Assembly: GCA_036655895.1 (NCBI GenBank)
Contig: JAVVPF010000017.1
Span: forward strand, 1 to 63,543
DNA from: Cloacibacillus sp.
Lineage (GTDB): Bacteria > Synergistota > Synergistia > Synergistales > Synergistaceae
DNA: 63,543 bases
Reading direction: 5' to 3'
This document shows, piece by piece, positions 54,525 to 61,744 of the stretch. Position 1 is the first letter of the stretch; the number at the start of each line of letters is the position of its first letter. The position numbers were made by a program, and so were the translations under genes. The notes beneath the pieces were generated by a model. That model was not told the origin of the DNA, did no database searches, and was given only the letters and a program-made list of their open reading frames with translations.

Positions 54525-54566
54525 AATATAATATAAACAGATATAAAAATGAGAAAGGGCGTCAAA

Positions 54567-56471
54567 ATGGAACATGTAATGAACTCACGAGGAGCATATA
54601 CGCGCGCGCGCCGCGACTACAGGGAGCTGGTCTTTTTCGCCCTCCTCGTATGCGCGCTCTTCTTTAAATTTTACTTCCTCGAGTACGAGGTCTCGGGCGC
54701 CGTCACGCGGATGCCGCTGTCGATGGCGGCCTCTTTTGCCATAATCCTGCTCTTTGCGCTGCCGGTATCGCTCTTCTGGCGCAGGGGGCGCTTTGCGCTG
54801 GCGATTCTTTTCGACCTTGCTGTGACGGCGCTCGTCGTGACCGACCTGCTCCATATCCGCTATTATTCGGACCTGTTTTCGTTCCATAATATAGGCCTCT
54901 CCGCGCAGGTGGGGGAGATATCCGAATCGGTCTTCGCGCTCTTTTCCGTGAAGGATCTGCTTTACTTTGCGGACGTCCCCGTGCTTGCGGGCTATATGCT
55001 CTTCTTCAAAAAAGCCTCTGTACGCCCCTTCTTTCGCAGGATAACGCGCCGCAGGCTCCGCGTCACGCTTGTTTTCTTCTGCGCCGCGCTTGCTCTCTTT
55101 TCATACCGTATATACAGCTACAACGCAAAGGTGCCTGGCGTGCTGCGCGCGATGTGGGACAGGCCCGCCGTCTGCAACAACGTAGGCGCTCTTACCTACC
55201 ATCTCGTCGATACAAAAAACAGCCTCTTCGACGCCGCGTCTCGCAAGAAGCTCTCGCCGTTGGAGGTGGAGGCCGTTAAGGCCGCCTTCGGCGCGAAGAA
55301 CGCGAAAGAAAAGCTGCCGGAGGGAGTGTTCGGCGCGGCGAAGGGAAAAAATCTCATCGTCATACAGGTGGAGTCTCTGCAAAGCTTCGTCATAGGGCTC
55401 AAATACGACGGCAAATATGTGACGCCGCACCTCAACGCCTTTTTCAGGGAGGCGTCGCTTGCCTCGAACATTTACAACCAGACGGCGGCCGGCAACAGCT
55501 CCGACGCGGAATTTATAGCAAACACAGGCCTCTATCCGTCCGCCGCAGGCGTCGCCTACACGCGCTTCGCCGGCAACAGCTACCGCGCGATGCCGCAGAC
55601 GCTGCGCGACAGCGGCTATTCCACCTTCGGGCTGCACGGCGACCGCGCCGGCTTCTGGAACCGCGGCCACATGTACCCGGCGCTCGGCTTCGAGCGCTTC
55701 GTCAGCCGCAAGGACTTCGTCTATGACGAAGGAATAGGCATGGGGCTAAGCGACAAGAGCTTCTTCCGGCAGGCGCTGCCGATGATGAAAGCTGAAAAAA
55801 AGCCCTTCTACGCCTTCTTGGTGACGCTCTCGAGCCACTATCCGTTCAACTTTCCCGGCCTCGTCGAACAGTCCGGCTTTGACGCGGGGCCGCTCAAAGG
55901 AAGCGTCGTAGGCGACTACCTCGCCGCCATCCATTATTTTGACACTCAGTTCGGCGCCTTCATCGAAGGGCTGAAAAAAGACGGGCTTTACGATACAAGC
56001 GTCATCGTCGTCTACGGCGACCACAACGCCATCCCGAAATGGGACTCGCCTAACCTCTCAAAGCTGCTTGTCGTAGACCTTACGCGGGATCACAACTGGC
56101 GGCGCGTTTCAAGCGTCCCGATAATAATAAACGTGCCCGGGGTAAAGCGCCTCAAGTACAACAAAAAAACGGCGCTCGGCCTGGCGGGGCTGCCGCGCAC
56201 GCTCTGCGCGCTGCTTGGAGCAGACTTTAAATCCGGGCTCGGCGGAGATTATTTTGACATGGAAAACACAGACGCGCCCGTCATATTCAGAAACGGCTCA
56301 TACGTGACAGGCGGCGTCTTCGTTCAGCCGGCGAAAAAAAGCGCTGTCGACCTGCGCACTGGCGCGCCTCTTGATTACGGCAAGTATGACAGGACCACGA
56401 AAAACGCGGCGGAGATGCTTGACGTAAGCGACAAGATACTTGAATACGACCTGATGCCGGTAATTTTCTAA
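54567..56471 (+). CDS. LtaS/sulfatase-type membrane phosphoglycerol transferase homologue, copy 1
   Basis: A 634-residue membrane enzyme of the alkaline-phosphatase superfamily. About five hydrophobic helices fill the first 185 residues, followed by a large extracytoplasmic sulfatase-like domain. Metal-site residues: Glu269 in VIQVESLQSF, Ser311 in GNSSDAEF where LtaS has its Thr nucleophile, the GLHGDRAGFWNRGHMY block, and Asp485-His486 in VVYGDHNAI. In relatives the enzyme adds phosphoglycerol (LtaS) or modifies envelope glycans (OpgB, EptA-like). The start at 54567 has AAAGGG eight bases upstream; an ATG six codons earlier does not. It is followed 16 bases later by a paralogue. Substrate unknown. 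Confidence 0.82.
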   Translation: MEHVMNSRGAYTRARRDYRELVFFALLVCALFFKFYFLEYEVSGAVTRMPLSMAASFAIILLFALPVSLFWRRGRFALAILFDLAVTALVVTDLLHIRYYSDLFSFHNIGLSAQVGEISESVFALFSVKDLLYFADVPVLAGYMLFFKKASVRPFFRRITRRRLRVTLVFFCAALALFSYRIYSYNAKVPGVLRAMWDRPAVCNNVGALTYHLVDTKNSLFDAASRKKLSPLEVEAVKAAFGAKNAKEKLPEGVFGAAKGKNLIVIQVESLQSFVIGLKYDGKYVTPHLNAFFREASLASNIYNQTAAGNSSDAEFIANTGLYPSAAGVAYTRFAGNSYRAMPQTLRDSGYSTFGLHGDRAGFWNRGHMYPALGFERFVSRKDFVYDEGIGMGLSDKSFFRQALPMMKAEKKPFYAFLVTLSSHYPFNFPGLVEQSGFDAGPLKGSVVGDYLAAIHYFDTQFGAFIEGLKKDGLYDTSVIVVYGDHNAIPKWDSPNLSKLLVVDLTRDHNWRRVSSVPIIINVPGVKRLKYNKKTALGLAGLPRTLCALLGADFKSGLGGDYFDMENTDAPVIFRNGSYVTGGVFVQPAKKSAVDLRTGAPLDYGKYDRTTKNAAEMLDVSDKILEYDLMPVIF

Positions 56472-56487
56472 AAGGGTGAGTTTTGCG

Positions 56488-58410
56488 ATGAGGCAGGACA
56501 AGAGACAAACGGCGATCGTAATTCCCGGTTTCTGGCTTCCGATAATAGCCGCGTTTTTAGTCTGGCTAAAATTTTTCTCAGTCGATTTCGCGGCGGCGGG
56601 AGTGCTCAACTGGCCGGTCTTTGGAGTGGAAGAGGCGCTTGGCCCGCTGCGGCACGTAGTGCGCGCGGCGGCTGTCGCCCCTCCTTCGCTTGCCGCCGTC
56701 CTCTGCCTTTTTATACCGGCGGCCTTTTTGCCCGGCAGGTTTAAAGTAGGTGCTGCGCTTGCGCTTGATTTTCTGCTTTCCGTCCTTGTCGGGACAGACA
56801 GGCTCTTTATAAGATACTACGCGGATATTTTCATCTTTCACGACCTGACGCTCGTCTCGCAGACGGGGCTGATCGTAAAATCAATATGGGCGCTGCTCAA
56901 ACCGTGGGATTTTTTGGTCTTCGCCGACCTTCCGATAGCCCTCTGGCTGCTGCGCACTGGGCGCGTGCGCTTTGACTTTGCGGCGAAGGCACGTAGGGGG
57001 AGGGCTGTGCTTGTTTTGCTCTTTGCCGCCTCCCTTCTTGTGCAGGGCGCGGCTTTGTGGCATTTGAAGACGAGCCGTCCGAACATAATAAACGCCATGT
57101 ACGACAGGCTTTCCGTCTGCGCGTGGATAAGCTCCGGCACCTTCCACTGGTGGGACGCGATCAGCCTCGCGCACAAGACGCTCGCGCCGCGCGGTGTCCC
57201 CGCGGCTCAGACGGAGGAGATAGCGCGTTGGTTTGCCGCATCGGTCCCCGCGCCGCACGCGCGCACGAAGGCGGTCAACCTCGTGCTCGTGCAGTGCGAG
57301 TCGCTCCAGTATTTTGTGACAGACCTTGCGATAAACGGCGTCCCCGTGACGCCGAACCTCAATAAATTCAAAAACGAGTGCCTCTACTACCCGAACGCGT
57401 GGAGCCAGGCGGCTGGCGGCAACAGCTCCGACGCGGAGTTCATGGCAAACACGGGGCTCTTTCCCGCGCCCTTTGGAGCGGCCTACACCTTATACGCCAA
57501 CGACGACTACAACTCTCTTGCGCGCGTTATGCGCCAGCAGCGCGGCGCGCGCGCCGTCGTAGTGCAGGGGACGAAGAGCGCGTTCTGGAACTGCCACCGT
57601 ATGCACCCGAAGCTCTGGTTCCACAAGCAGTACAGCCAGAGCACCTACCCCGACGACGAGGCGATCGGCCTCGGCTTAAGCGACCGCGCCATCTTCACGC
57701 GCGTCCTTTCGCTCTTTGGGGAGATGGACGGCCCCTTCTACGGCTTCATCGTGACGCTGACGAGCCATCATCCGTTCGATTTTGAAGGCATACCGAAGGA
57801 CTCTCTGCCCCTGCCACCTGAGCTGCAAAATACGCTCATAGGAAATTATCTGCTCTCCGTAAATTATTTTGACAAACAATTCGGCCTCTTCATCGACGGC
57901 ATGAGAGAGCGCGGCCTTTTAGACAAAAGCCTCATCGTAGTCTACGGCGACCATCCGGCCGTCCCCATAGCCTACAGAGAGGACATGGAGCGGCTGCTTG
58001 GCAAAAGCCTGGAAGATGCGGCCGATTGGAAGGCGACGCGCCGCGTCACGCTGATGTTCCGCGTGCCGGAGTACGCGAAATCCCCGAAGGTCTTATATGA
58101 AAACGCGGGACACATGGACATCCTTCCAACCGCCGCGGGACTCATGGGGCTTAAAATAAAAACTGTTTTTGGGAACGACCTGCTATCGTCCGGCAAAAAA
58201 TCGCCCGTCGTCTTTAGGAACGGCAGCTACATAGACGGCGACACCTTCGTTGAGCCTGGAATCGGGCGCGCCTCAAACCTCAAAACCGGCGAGCGCCGGG
58301 ACGACGGAGAATTTGAAAAAGAAACGCAAGAGGCCGCGCTGCGTCTTAAATACAGCGACCTCATTCTGGAACACAATCTAATTGAAAAAATATTAAAAAT
58401 CACAAGATGA
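56488..58410 (+). CDS. LtaS/sulfatase-type membrane phosphoglycerol transferase homologue, copy 2
   Basis: Tandem paralogue of the preceding gene, 640 residues, with the same plan: about five N-terminal helices, then a sulfatase-like domain with Glu271 in LVQCESLQYF, Ser313 in GNSSDAEF, VQGTKSAFWNCHRMHP and Asp488-His489 in VVYGDHPAV. The C-terminal blocks (PVVFRNGSYIDGDTFVEPG) also align with copy 1. The start is ATG 56488 with AAGGGTGAG upstream; a GTG four codons earlier overlaps that site. The copies differ widely in the loops, so they may have different acceptors. Substrate unknown. Confidence 0.82.
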   Translation: MRQDKRQTAIVIPGFWLPIIAAFLVWLKFFSVDFAAAGVLNWPVFGVEEALGPLRHVVRAAAVAPPSLAAVLCLFIPAAFLPGRFKVGAALALDFLLSVLVGTDRLFIRYYADIFIFHDLTLVSQTGLIVKSIWALLKPWDFLVFADLPIALWLLRTGRVRFDFAAKARRGRAVLVLLFAASLLVQGAALWHLKTSRPNIINAMYDRLSVCAWISSGTFHWWDAISLAHKTLAPRGVPAAQTEEIARWFAASVPAPHARTKAVNLVLVQCESLQYFVTDLAINGVPVTPNLNKFKNECLYYPNAWSQAAGGNSSDAEFMANTGLFPAPFGAAYTLYANDDYNSLARVMRQQRGARAVVVQGTKSAFWNCHRMHPKLWFHKQYSQSTYPDDEAIGLGLSDRAIFTRVLSLFGEMDGPFYGFIVTLTSHHPFDFEGIPKDSLPLPPELQNTLIGNYLLSVNYFDKQFGLFIDGMRERGLLDKSLIVVYGDHPAVPIAYREDMERLLGKSLEDAADWKATRRVTLMFRVPEYAKSPKVLYENAGHMDILPTAAGLMGLKIKTVFGNDLLSSGKKSPVVFRNGSYIDGDTFVEPGIGRASNLKTGERRDDGEFEKETQEAALRLKYSDLILEHNLIEKILKITR

Positions 58411-58494: not shown

Positions 58495-59805
58495 ATGGAC
58501 AAGACGGAATTGTTTTACTGGGTGATTTGGTGGGGATGGTGGATAATCCAGTTTATCCTCTACACGCTTCTGGCCGGTCTCATGTGCGACGGCCTCTATC
58601 AGATTGCGGTGAGCCTCCGCGGCTTCTGGAGCCAGCAAAAGCTGCCTCAGGCAAAGCGCTACAGACGCTTTTGCGTGCTCGTGCCCGCTCACAACGAGGC
58701 TATGGTTATAACTCCGCTTCTTGACAGTTTGGCAAATCAAAATTATCCGAAGAACTGCTATAAAGTCTACGCCTCTTGCGACAACTGCTCTGACAATACG
58801 GCGGAGCTTGCTTCGCGTCACGGCGCGGTTGCGCTTGAACGCTTCGACAAAGAACACAACGGCAAGACATGGAACGTCCGCTGGGCGCTGACCAAGATCC
58901 CCTTTGACGAATACGACGCTCTTGCGATGTTTGACGCGGACAATCTGGCCGACAAAAACTTCCTGATGGCGATGAACAACTACATGGAGCTGCACCCGGA
59001 GGCCGAGGCCATCCAGGGAGTGCTTGACGTAAAGAACCCCGACGACAACTGGCTGACGCGTTCCTACGCGCTCGCCTACTGGTTCACCAACAGATTCTGG
59101 CAGCTTGCACGCGGCCTTTGGGGGCTTTCCTGCACGCTGGGCGGAACCGGCCTCGTCATCCGCACCGCGACGCTTGAACGCATCGGCTGGAACCTTCAGA
59201 GCCTCACGGAGGATCTTGAGATGTCGACGCGCCTCATCCTCTCCGGCAGCCGCGTCCACTGGAACGACGCGGCCGTCATCTACGACGAAAAGCCGCAGGA
59301 CATGGCCATCTCAAAACGTCAGCGCACGCGCTGGATGCAGGGCCATTACTGGGTCTTCTGGAACTACGGCTGGGACGCGCTGAAAGCCTTCTTCGTCACG
59401 CGCCGCCTCCAGTATCTCGACCTCTTCCTCTACCTGCTCGCCCCGGCGAAATCCTGCCTCGGCATCATCATAATGCTCGCCGGTATGGCCTTTACTCTTA
59501 TAAACAACATGGTGCTCTATCCGTCGTCCGACATCCCGCAGTCGATGATGGAATGGTCGCTCTTCTTCGGGCTGCCCATCTTCTCCATCATCGCCTTCTG
59601 CCTCATCTGCGCCATAGCGGGGCCGTCGATGCACGAAAAGAAATTCACCCTCAGATATGTGAAGGATACCTTCGCGTATTTCTGGTTCGGGCTCACATGG
59701 ATACCGATACTCTTCAAAGCCGCCTTCCTCGCGAAAGATCAGGGCAACTGGGTCAAGACGGAGCATACGCGCAGCATGTCCATTGACGAGTTGAAGTCCA
59801 AGTAG
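58495..59805 (+). CDS. Membrane glycosyltransferase family 2
   Basis: Processive-type GT2 enzyme of 436 residues. A membrane helix spans about residues 10-38, then the catalytic domain with CVLVPAHNEAMVITPLLDSL, DNCSD, FDADN (sugar-nucleotide/metal site), TEDLEMSTR (catalytic Asp) and QRTRWMQGHYWVF (the QxxRW motif of cellulose and chitin synthase-like enzymes). Three further hydrophobic segments lie after residue 300. It follows the two LtaS-like genes by 84 bases and precedes a transporter gene in the same frame. A role in making an envelope polysaccharide or glycolipid is likely; sugar unknown. Confidence 0.87.
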   Translation: MDKTELFYWVIWWGWWIIQFILYTLLAGLMCDGLYQIAVSLRGFWSQQKLPQAKRYRRFCVLVPAHNEAMVITPLLDSLANQNYPKNCYKVYASCDNCSDNTAELASRHGAVALERFDKEHNGKTWNVRWALTKIPFDEYDALAMFDADNLADKNFLMAMNNYMELHPEAEAIQGVLDVKNPDDNWLTRSYALAYWFTNRFWQLARGLWGLSCTLGGTGLVIRTATLERIGWNLQSLTEDLEMSTRLILSGSRVHWNDAAVIYDEKPQDMAISKRQRTRWMQGHYWVFWNYGWDALKAFFVTRRLQYLDLFLYLLAPAKSCLGIIIMLAGMAFTLINNMVLYPSSDIPQSMMEWSLFFGLPIFSIIAFCLICAIAGPSMHEKKFTLRYVKDTFAYFWFGLTWIPILFKAAFLAKDQGNWVKTEHTRSMSIDELKSK

Positions 59806-59817
59806 CGGGGGGAAGAG

Positions 59818-61104
59818 ATCATAAAAACACAGTTCGCACTATTTACGGAGCGCCGCTTCCTGCCGTTCTTCCTGACGCAGTTTCTCGGAGCCTTCAACGA
59901 CAACCTTTTTAAAAGCGCGCTTGTAACGCTGATAACTTTTCGGCTCGCAGCAGTCTATAATGTCAACGCCCCGATGCTCATAACAGTAGTAGCGGGGCTT
60001 TTTATTTTGCCCTTTTTTCTGTTTTCGTCGCTCGCGGGGCAGATATGCGACAAGTATGAAAAAAGCTTTCTTATCCGCATAATAAAATTTGTTGAGATAA
60101 TCCTCATGTGTCTGACGGCGGCGGCCTTTGAGATGATGCAGCTTTGGTGGCTCGTCTTTCTGCTCTTCTGCATGGGCACTCAGTCCACCTTCTTCGGCCC
60201 GCTCAAATACAGCATACTGCCGCAGCTTTTGACCGACGACGAACTTATCGCAGGCAACGGCCTTGTAAACGCCGGAACGAACGTGGCGATACTGACTGGC
60301 ACGCTCTGCGGAGGGCTGCTCATACTCTCCGCGTCAGGAAGGCACTACATCGCAATAGGCATAATCGGCGTGGCTATCGCAGGATACGCCGCCTCCCGCT
60401 TCATCCCCAACTCACCCGCAGCTGCGCCCGGTCTTAAGATAGACCGCAATCTCTTTCGTTCTACGTGGCAGATGCTCGCCTATCCCGTCGCAAACAAACG
60501 CGTCTTTACCGCGATACTCGGGATAAGCTGGTTCTGGTTCATCGGCTCCGTCTACCTGGCGCAGTTTCCGTCGTACGCAAAGGACGTCATAGGCGGAGAT
60601 GAGCAGGTATCGACATTGTTTCTAGTCATATTTTCAATAGGCGTGGGGCTTGGCGCCACCTGCTGCAACAAACTGCTGAAAGGCCGCGTCTCGGGAAAAT
60701 ACCTGCCGGCGAGCCTCGTCTGCATCAGCCTCTTCACAGCGCTGCTCTGCTACTTCAGCCGCGACCTCTTCCCCGGCCAACAACTGGGTTCGCTTGCCGT
60801 CTTTATAGGCTCGCCAGGCTCCGTTCCGATAATCCTATCAATGCTGCTGCTTGCGGTGGCGGGTGGCATATTCAGCGTTCCTATGTACGCCATAATGCAG
60901 CGGCTCACGCCGCCCACGCACATGGCGCGCGTAATAGCGTCGCTCAACATCTTCAACTCATTCTATATGGTGGTGGCCGCTTTGCTCTGCGCCGTCATGA
61001 TAGGCGCGGGAGCCTCCATCTTGTTCATCTTCATCTCTATGGCGGCGCTGAACTTTTTCATGCTGCCGTTAGCCTTTAAACTCTCGGGGGTAGATTATGA
61101 CTGA
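59818..61104 (+). CDS. LplT-like MFS transporter with no ordinary start codon
   Basis: A major-facilitator protein whose conserved opening, FLPFFLTQFLGAFNDNLFKS, lies upstream of the first in-frame ATG (59974). That ATG would remove the first helix. Between the GT2 stop (TAG 59803-59805) and 59974 there is no in-frame ATG, GTG or TTG. GGGGGGAAGAG (59807-59816) is followed by ATC (59818) and ATA (59821), either giving a start Met-(Ile)-Lys-Thr-Gln-Phe. I annotate from the ATC, giving 428 residues and about 12 helices. The gene is in the same frame as GT2, so UAG readthrough is also possible. Relatives (LplT) flip lysophospholipids. It overlaps the aldolase gene by eight bases. Confidence 0.75.
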   Translation: MIKTQFALFTERRFLPFFLTQFLGAFNDNLFKSALVTLITFRLAAVYNVNAPMLITVVAGLFILPFFLFSSLAGQICDKYEKSFLIRIIKFVEIILMCLTAAAFEMMQLWWLVFLLFCMGTQSTFFGPLKYSILPQLLTDDELIAGNGLVNAGTNVAILTGTLCGGLLILSASGRHYIAIGIIGVAIAGYAASRFIPNSPAAAPGLKIDRNLFRSTWQMLAYPVANKRVFTAILGISWFWFIGSVYLAQFPSYAKDVIGGDEQVSTLFLVIFSIGVGLGATCCNKLLKGRVSGKYLPASLVCISLFTALLCYFSRDLFPGQQLGSLAVFIGSPGSVPIILSMLLLAVAGGIFSVPMYAIMQRLTPPTHMARVIASLNIFNSFYMVVAALLCAVMIGAGASILFIFISMAALNFFMLPLAFKLSGVDYD

Positions 61105-61744
61105 TCGTCAAATGAGAAACGCGCTCATCCAGAGCGCCCGCGAAATGCTGGCCGCCGGACTCGTGCAGGGAACCGGCGGAAATTTCAGCCTGCGCTGCGA
61201 AGAGGGGCTTATCATCACGCCAAGCGGCATGGAGTACAACACGCTGACGCCGGAAGACCTGCCAAAGCTTGCGCTCGACGGCAGAGTGCTTGAAGGCAGA
61301 AGAGCGCCCTCTGTGGAAAACGGGCTGCACCGCGCCATCTATCGCGCGCGACGCGACGTGTTGGCCGTCGTGCACACCCATTCCGTCTGTGCTTCGGCCG
61401 CCTCCGCGCTTAGGCGTGCGCTTCCCGCGCTGCTTGACAATCAAGCGGTGCTTTTTGGCGGGGCTGTGCCCTGCGCAGCATACGCGCCTATCGGCACGCC
61501 GGAGCTTGCGGAAAACGCACTTTCGGCGCTGGGACGCGGTTTTGCCGTGCTTCTTGCGAACCACGGGGCGGTCTGCGTGGGAGCCACGCTGAAAGAGGCT
61601 GAGAGCCGCTGTTTTATGCTTGAACTTTTTGCAAAAGTATATTTTTTGACGGCGGGGGCCGGAGGGGCCGTCGCACTCACAGAGGCCGAAGCAAAAGACG
61701 AGGCTGAGGACATGGCAAGACGCTACGGCCAGCAGCAGAAATAA
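61097..61744 (+). CDS. Class II aldolase/adducin family protein
   Basis: A 215-residue zinc aldolase-fold protein like L-fuculose- or L-ribulose-phosphate enzymes. TGGNFSLRCEEGLIITPSG near residue 25, the Glu of SVENGLHRAIY near 74, the zinc histidines in VVHTHSV near 93, and the third histidine in LLANHGAVCVG near 155. Its ATG overlaps the end of the transporter gene. It may make or break a sugar-phosphate precursor, but nothing here fixes the substrate. Confidence 0.85.
   Translation: MTDRQMRNALIQSAREMLAAGLVQGTGGNFSLRCEEGLIITPSGMEYNTLTPEDLPKLALDGRVLEGRRAPSVENGLHRAIYRARRDVLAVVHTHSVCASAASALRRALPALLDNQAVLFGGAVPCAAYAPIGTPELAENALSALGRGFAVLLANHGAVCVGATLKEAESRCFMLELFAKVYFLTAGAGGAVALTEAEAKDEAEDMARRYGQQQK

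Follow-up and report, generated by a model that had tools for sequence, protein, structure and literature searches.

The window analysed here is a stretch of 63,543 nucleotides from Cloacibacillus sp. (contig JAVVPF010000017.1), in which a gene for a GT2 glycosyltransferase is followed by genes for an MFS transporter and a class II aldolase (Table 1). This gene order is retained in most relatives, and the aldolase gene, counted from its ATG, shares 8 nt with the 3' end of the transporter gene. Two tandem genes encoding LtaS-like phosphoglycerol transferases are found directly 5' of the GT2 gene, and suggest that the locus serves a glycerol-phosphate envelope polymer or lipid.

The transporter was assigned to the MFS by its Pfam MFS_1 score (62.8 bits versus a gathering score of 33.4, E 3.4e-17), the match starting at residue 22 of the translated frame (P0001). 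The best match of frame 59806-61101 was the MFS part of NCBIfam PRK06814 (acyl-ACP:phospholipid O-acyltransferase; E 2.2e-125), which remained under the curated cut-off. The LplT model PRK11195 matched more weakly (E 9.6e-25) and, since its score of 87.5 bits is under the curated cut-off of 297, the protein is called LplT-like only. A PDB sequence search returned no match.

Table 1. Features of the GT2-transporter-aldolase locus (positions in the window).
Feature	Position	Strand	Remarks
LtaS-like phosphoglycerol transferase gene (sulfatase family), first of the tandem	54549-56471		
LtaS-like phosphoglycerol transferase gene (sulfatase family), second of the tandem	56476-58410		
GT2 glycosyltransferase gene	58495..59805	+	Pfam Glyco_tranf_2_3, E 4.5e-28
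GT2 stop TAG	59803-59805	+	15 nt 5' of the AUA start
Shine-Dalgarno core GGGGG	59808..59812	+	-13 to -9 relative to AUA, 8-nt spacer
ATC codon, part of the spacer and not a start	59818..59820	+	column varies among relatives
AUA start codon of the transporter (very probable)	59821..59823	+	ATA 11, ATC 5, ACG 1 (17 genomes)
LplT-like MFS transporter gene, 427 aa counted from AUA	59821..61104	+	Pfam MFS_1, NCBIfam
Class II aldolase gene	61097..61744	+	Pfam Aldolase_II, E 3e-50; gene order conserved

In the GT2 frame, the TAG is followed by CGG GGG GAA GAG ATC ATA AAA ACA CAG TTC. As stated in the original prediction, the transporter frame holds no ATG, GTG or TTG from this TAG up to 59974, where an ATG is the earliest such codon. 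This ATG falls within the conserved transporter, and starting there costs 51 N-terminal residues. The first transmembrane segment is encoded 5' of 59974, as is the FLPFFLTQFLGAFNDN motif, which homologs, including proteobacterial ones, have in common. That a conserved MFS N-terminus directly follows the GT2 stop, as had been proposed, was borne out by the homolog from genome G015, which matches over residues 1-432 (72%), and by conservation in the 17 genomes described below.

A start at ATG 59974, which is the first canonical codon and the choice of an annotation program limited to ATG, GTG and TTG, would leave the conserved upstream stretch untranslated. The protein would then lack its first transmembrane segment as well as the FLPxFLTQFxGAFNDN motif of all homologs. 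Moreover, every relative conserves the upstream stretch at the protein level, and 33 of 39 residues are identical to those that G015 encodes before its first canonical codon. We consider a start at 59974 very unlikely.

The start column in related genomes

Homologs were searched in 53 genomes of the window's family, and the 17 genomes closest to the query (57-100% identity), which belong to nine genera, were aligned by frame as the comparison set. The alignment over 59818-59823, which had been put forward as a check, gave ATA, ATC or, in a single genome, ACG at the 59821 column (Table 1), and ATG, GTG or TTG in 0 of the 17 genomes. Two contrary outcomes, an ATG at the start site and an unconserved N-terminus, were looked for and neither was encountered. 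By contrast with the 59821 column, the 59818 column varies among relatives, where ATC, GTG, GGC, GAT, AAG, AAA, GGG and CAG are found. Strong residue conservation in the clade begins at the second or third codon, with Gln and Phe present three and four codons past the start in 17/17 genomes, whereas the residues 5' of the ATA are variable. Upstream of the start, a G-run with a GGGGG or GGAGGTG-like core keeps a fixed register from -13 to -9, G being present at these positions in 16, 14, 14, 17 and 15 of the 17 genomes, respectively.

In-frame stops are located 3, 5, 6 or 10 codons 5' of the start column in twelve cases, and the window and 11 further genomes (12/17) carry no canonical codon in the interval from the in-frame stop to the start column. 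At loci L085 and L087 the in-frame stop is followed only by ACA or ACC and GGC, then by ATA, so that no other near-cognate upstream codon is present. In the five remaining genomes, an in-frame canonical codon lies 1-5 codons upstream (GTG in L084, L089 and L090, TTG/GTG in L091, ATG/GTG in L095) and might be in use there. Since only the 59821 column is kept and L085 and L087 offer nothing else, we place the start at AUA 59821 and not at ATC 59818. The original prediction had left the choice between these two codons; its proposal of an AUA start with a suitably spaced purine-rich sequence upstream is thus retained, and AUC 59818 is discarded, its column being unconserved.

The only relative with ACG, L090 (genome G014), carries an in-frame TGA in its transporter frame; damage to this copy or a misassembly is possible. 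The ratio of ATA to ATC at the start was dropped as a sign of selection because it is uninformative alone, the internal Ile codons of the same transporter genes being similarly biased (49% ATA, 33% ATC). A role for RNA structure at the start site was likewise rejected, the predicted fold of 59771-59870 being no more stable than shuffled sequences (z -0.75).

The same alignment bears on two further explanations. It had been suggested that readthrough of the UAG could yield a GT2-transporter fusion protein, and in the window the TAG is indeed in frame with the transporter. However, the GT2 stop of the clade is TAG, TAA or TGA, lies 15-90 nt 5' of the start, and departs from the transporter frame in six relatives (L083, L085, L086, L087, L089 and L095). 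In addition, the stretch from this stop to the AUA varies in its residues and contains further in-frame stops. Because the frame of the GT2 stop varies, readthrough is not a conserved mechanism, and we regard it as extremely improbable. A sequencing or assembly error concealing an ATG could be imagined for the window's genome, a draft of 160 contigs, but the column is non-canonical in 17 genomes, including two single-contig assemblies of 3.59 and 3.49 Mb. This agreement excludes an error for practical purposes, the chance left to it being vanishingly small.

The infC gene and the rarity of non-canonical starts

The infC gene, which encodes IF3, starts with AUU, AUC or AUA and is autoregulated by IF3, acting through infC's own start codon. 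It was located in 47 of the 53 family genomes. In the window's genome and the clade members read, infC shows AGGAGGTG, then 7 nt, then ATA (ATA GCA or similar). In more distant family members ATT or ATA stands at this position, start readings being used from roughly half the remaining loci. Because infC of the window's own genome (L148; G000:C9, 7.3-7.8 kb, minus strand; relatives L149-L163) starts at AUA, the analogy with infC is closer than had been proposed.

To look for other genes of this kind, the window's genome (about 1.28 Mb of it) was surveyed against 1.2 Mb of G015, giving 347 ortholog pairs in coding frame, for conserved coding (mostly third-position differences) 5' of the first shared canonical start. 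Of the five candidates flagged, two were spurious frames and the others were the transporter, infC and an Rrf2-type regulator. The three genuine conserved non-canonical starts among 347 pairs are a lower bound, since the survey is blind where both genomes share a stray upstream canonical codon. With only three real cases, a genome-wide relaxation of initiation was ruled out. An altered initiator tRNA or a UAU initiator was also set aside: in the 44% of the window's genome examined, the CAU tRNAs look ordinary and no tRNA with a UAU anticodon was found. Judged from these sequences, non-canonical starts are rare and gene-specific in these genomes.

The Rrf2-type regulator, identified with Pfam (L219:10513-11052, that is G000:C6, about 29.5-30.05 kb; relatives L288-L307), follows a purine-rich Shine-Dalgarno sequence, and its start column reads CTG in 12 genomes, ATG in five and GTG in three. 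The presence of ATG or GTG in other genomes supports taking this column as the start.

As a side observation, an ArsC/Spx-like protein shows an in-frame TGA before STC or TTC (CYPQ-TGA-STC / CYPQ-TGA-TTC) in the window's genome (L222, G000:C7:19001-39000, minus strand) and in G015 (L194). This protein is a probable selenoprotein, and the window's genome has a predicted tRNA-Sec.

Origin of the AUH start and its possible control by IF3

On the transporter tree, the AUH state requires two changes, versus 12.4 for shuffled labels. Given that the outgroups lack AUH, this is most simply explained by a single origin and a single reversion to ATG, the latter in the lineage that holds L096-L098, L105 and L102; L102 and L105 are long branches of unsure placement. 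The Rrf2 regulator has canonical starts too (ATG, GTG, GTG) in the genus to which L096-L098 belong; in L296, from the same genome as L105, it retains CTG. Other genera carry the same operon with an ATG-started transporter, which shows that the weak start is not essential to the operon. Among 151 genomes of the order, transporter homologs were found in one further family only, and the single start read there (L107) is ATG.

The comparison of genomes establishes the start codon, its conservation, the register of the Shine-Dalgarno sequence and the parallel with infC. From these we conclude with good confidence that the transporter starts at AUA 59821, which is probably a weak, IF3-sensitive start. 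This codon would be read, like AUA or AUC in the relatives, by the ordinary initiator tRNA (anticodon CAU), placed by the G-rich Shine-Dalgarno sequence 8 nt upstream. The third-position mismatch would make initiation weak and sensitive to IF3, as at infC; IF3 is known to disfavour start codons whose third position pairs weakly with the initiator anticodon (PMC10158994). In S. aureus, AUA starts reach about 10% of AUG, and ccpN in rich medium reaches up to 30% (PMC13009471). The start of translation probably limits or regulates transporter output: it would stay below that of the operon neighbours, GT2 and aldolase, and would follow the IF3 level. By analogy we infer a reduced, IF3-dependent synthesis of the transporter. 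Ribosomes that have just terminated on GT2 may assist initiation at the AUA, re-initiation by these ribosomes being plausible because the GT2 stop and the AUA are closely spaced. Re-initiation in E. coli depends on initiator tRNA and IF2, and excess IF3 lowers it (PMC2268962).

Alternatively, the AUA or AUC codon could be genuine and near-neutral, a good Shine-Dalgarno sequence and coupling to GT2 making the codon unimportant, with no regulation by IF3. The short distance from the GT2 stop and several drifts from ATA to ATC are in line with this explanation. On the other hand, none of the 17 genomes has an ATG although a single transition would convert ATA to ATG, neighbouring lineages do use ATG, and AUG is normally favoured by selection (PMC5622118). 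As there are few independent codon changes, this avoidance of ATG is statistically modest. We hold a near-neutral codon to be the less likely alternative, though of appreciable probability, and favour the IF3-sensitive weak start. It is possible, and we propose it tentatively, that the infC (AUA), LplT-like transporter (AUA/AUC) and Rrf2 (CUG) genes form a small IF3-controlled set in this family that would link envelope-lipid transport and a transcriptional regulator to translation capacity through the IF3 level.

Relation to known non-canonical starts

To our knowledge, conserved non-NUG starts have been described for only a few bacterial genes, most of which encode regulators or are infC itself. 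The transporter resembles infC in its AUH start, its strong Shine-Dalgarno sequence and its conservation over a wide lineage, and infC has an AUA start in this very family. It differs in that there is no feedback on IF3 itself, because the product is a membrane transporter. Streptomyces sigR, which starts with GUC and is repressed by IF3 in experiment, likewise combines a non-canonical start in nearly all species of its lineage with a long Shine-Dalgarno sequence and is a target other than IF3 (PMC5472188). By contrast with the transporter, its codon is GUC and not AUH, it encodes a sigma factor heading a sigma/antisigma pair, and its repression by IF3 is experimental where that of the transporter is inferred. 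Non-canonical starts have also been described for ccpN of S. aureus and B. subtilis (AUA in S. aureus) and for staphylococcal cvfC1 (AUU) (PMC13009471). These share a conserved AUA or AUU start and an extended Shine-Dalgarno sequence with the transporter, but encode a regulator and a small protein, not an operon transporter, and their initiation was measured. In Borrelia burgdorferi, pncA starts with AUU (PMC13398362); as here, its product is not a regulator, and the database protein is truncated, as is probable for the transporter, although the codon is AUU, the product is a soluble enzyme and the case concerns one species. A survey of 36 genome triplets put start switches from AUG to CUG or AUU at around 1e-5 (PMC5622118).

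Conserved non-NUG starts were already known, and the transporter is a deeply conserved further member beside infC, sigR and ccpN. The open-access literature searched contained no operon transporter that starts with AUA or AUC across nine genera. The transporter protein is probably truncated in annotations restricted to ATG, GTG and TTG. The two-genome comparison recovered infC as a control together with two further genes without experiments, and is applicable to any genome pair. Taken together, an operon transporter starting with AUA or AUC across nine genera extends conserved non-NUG starts to structural genes, and its start offers a natural test of IF3 as a regulator beyond its own gene.
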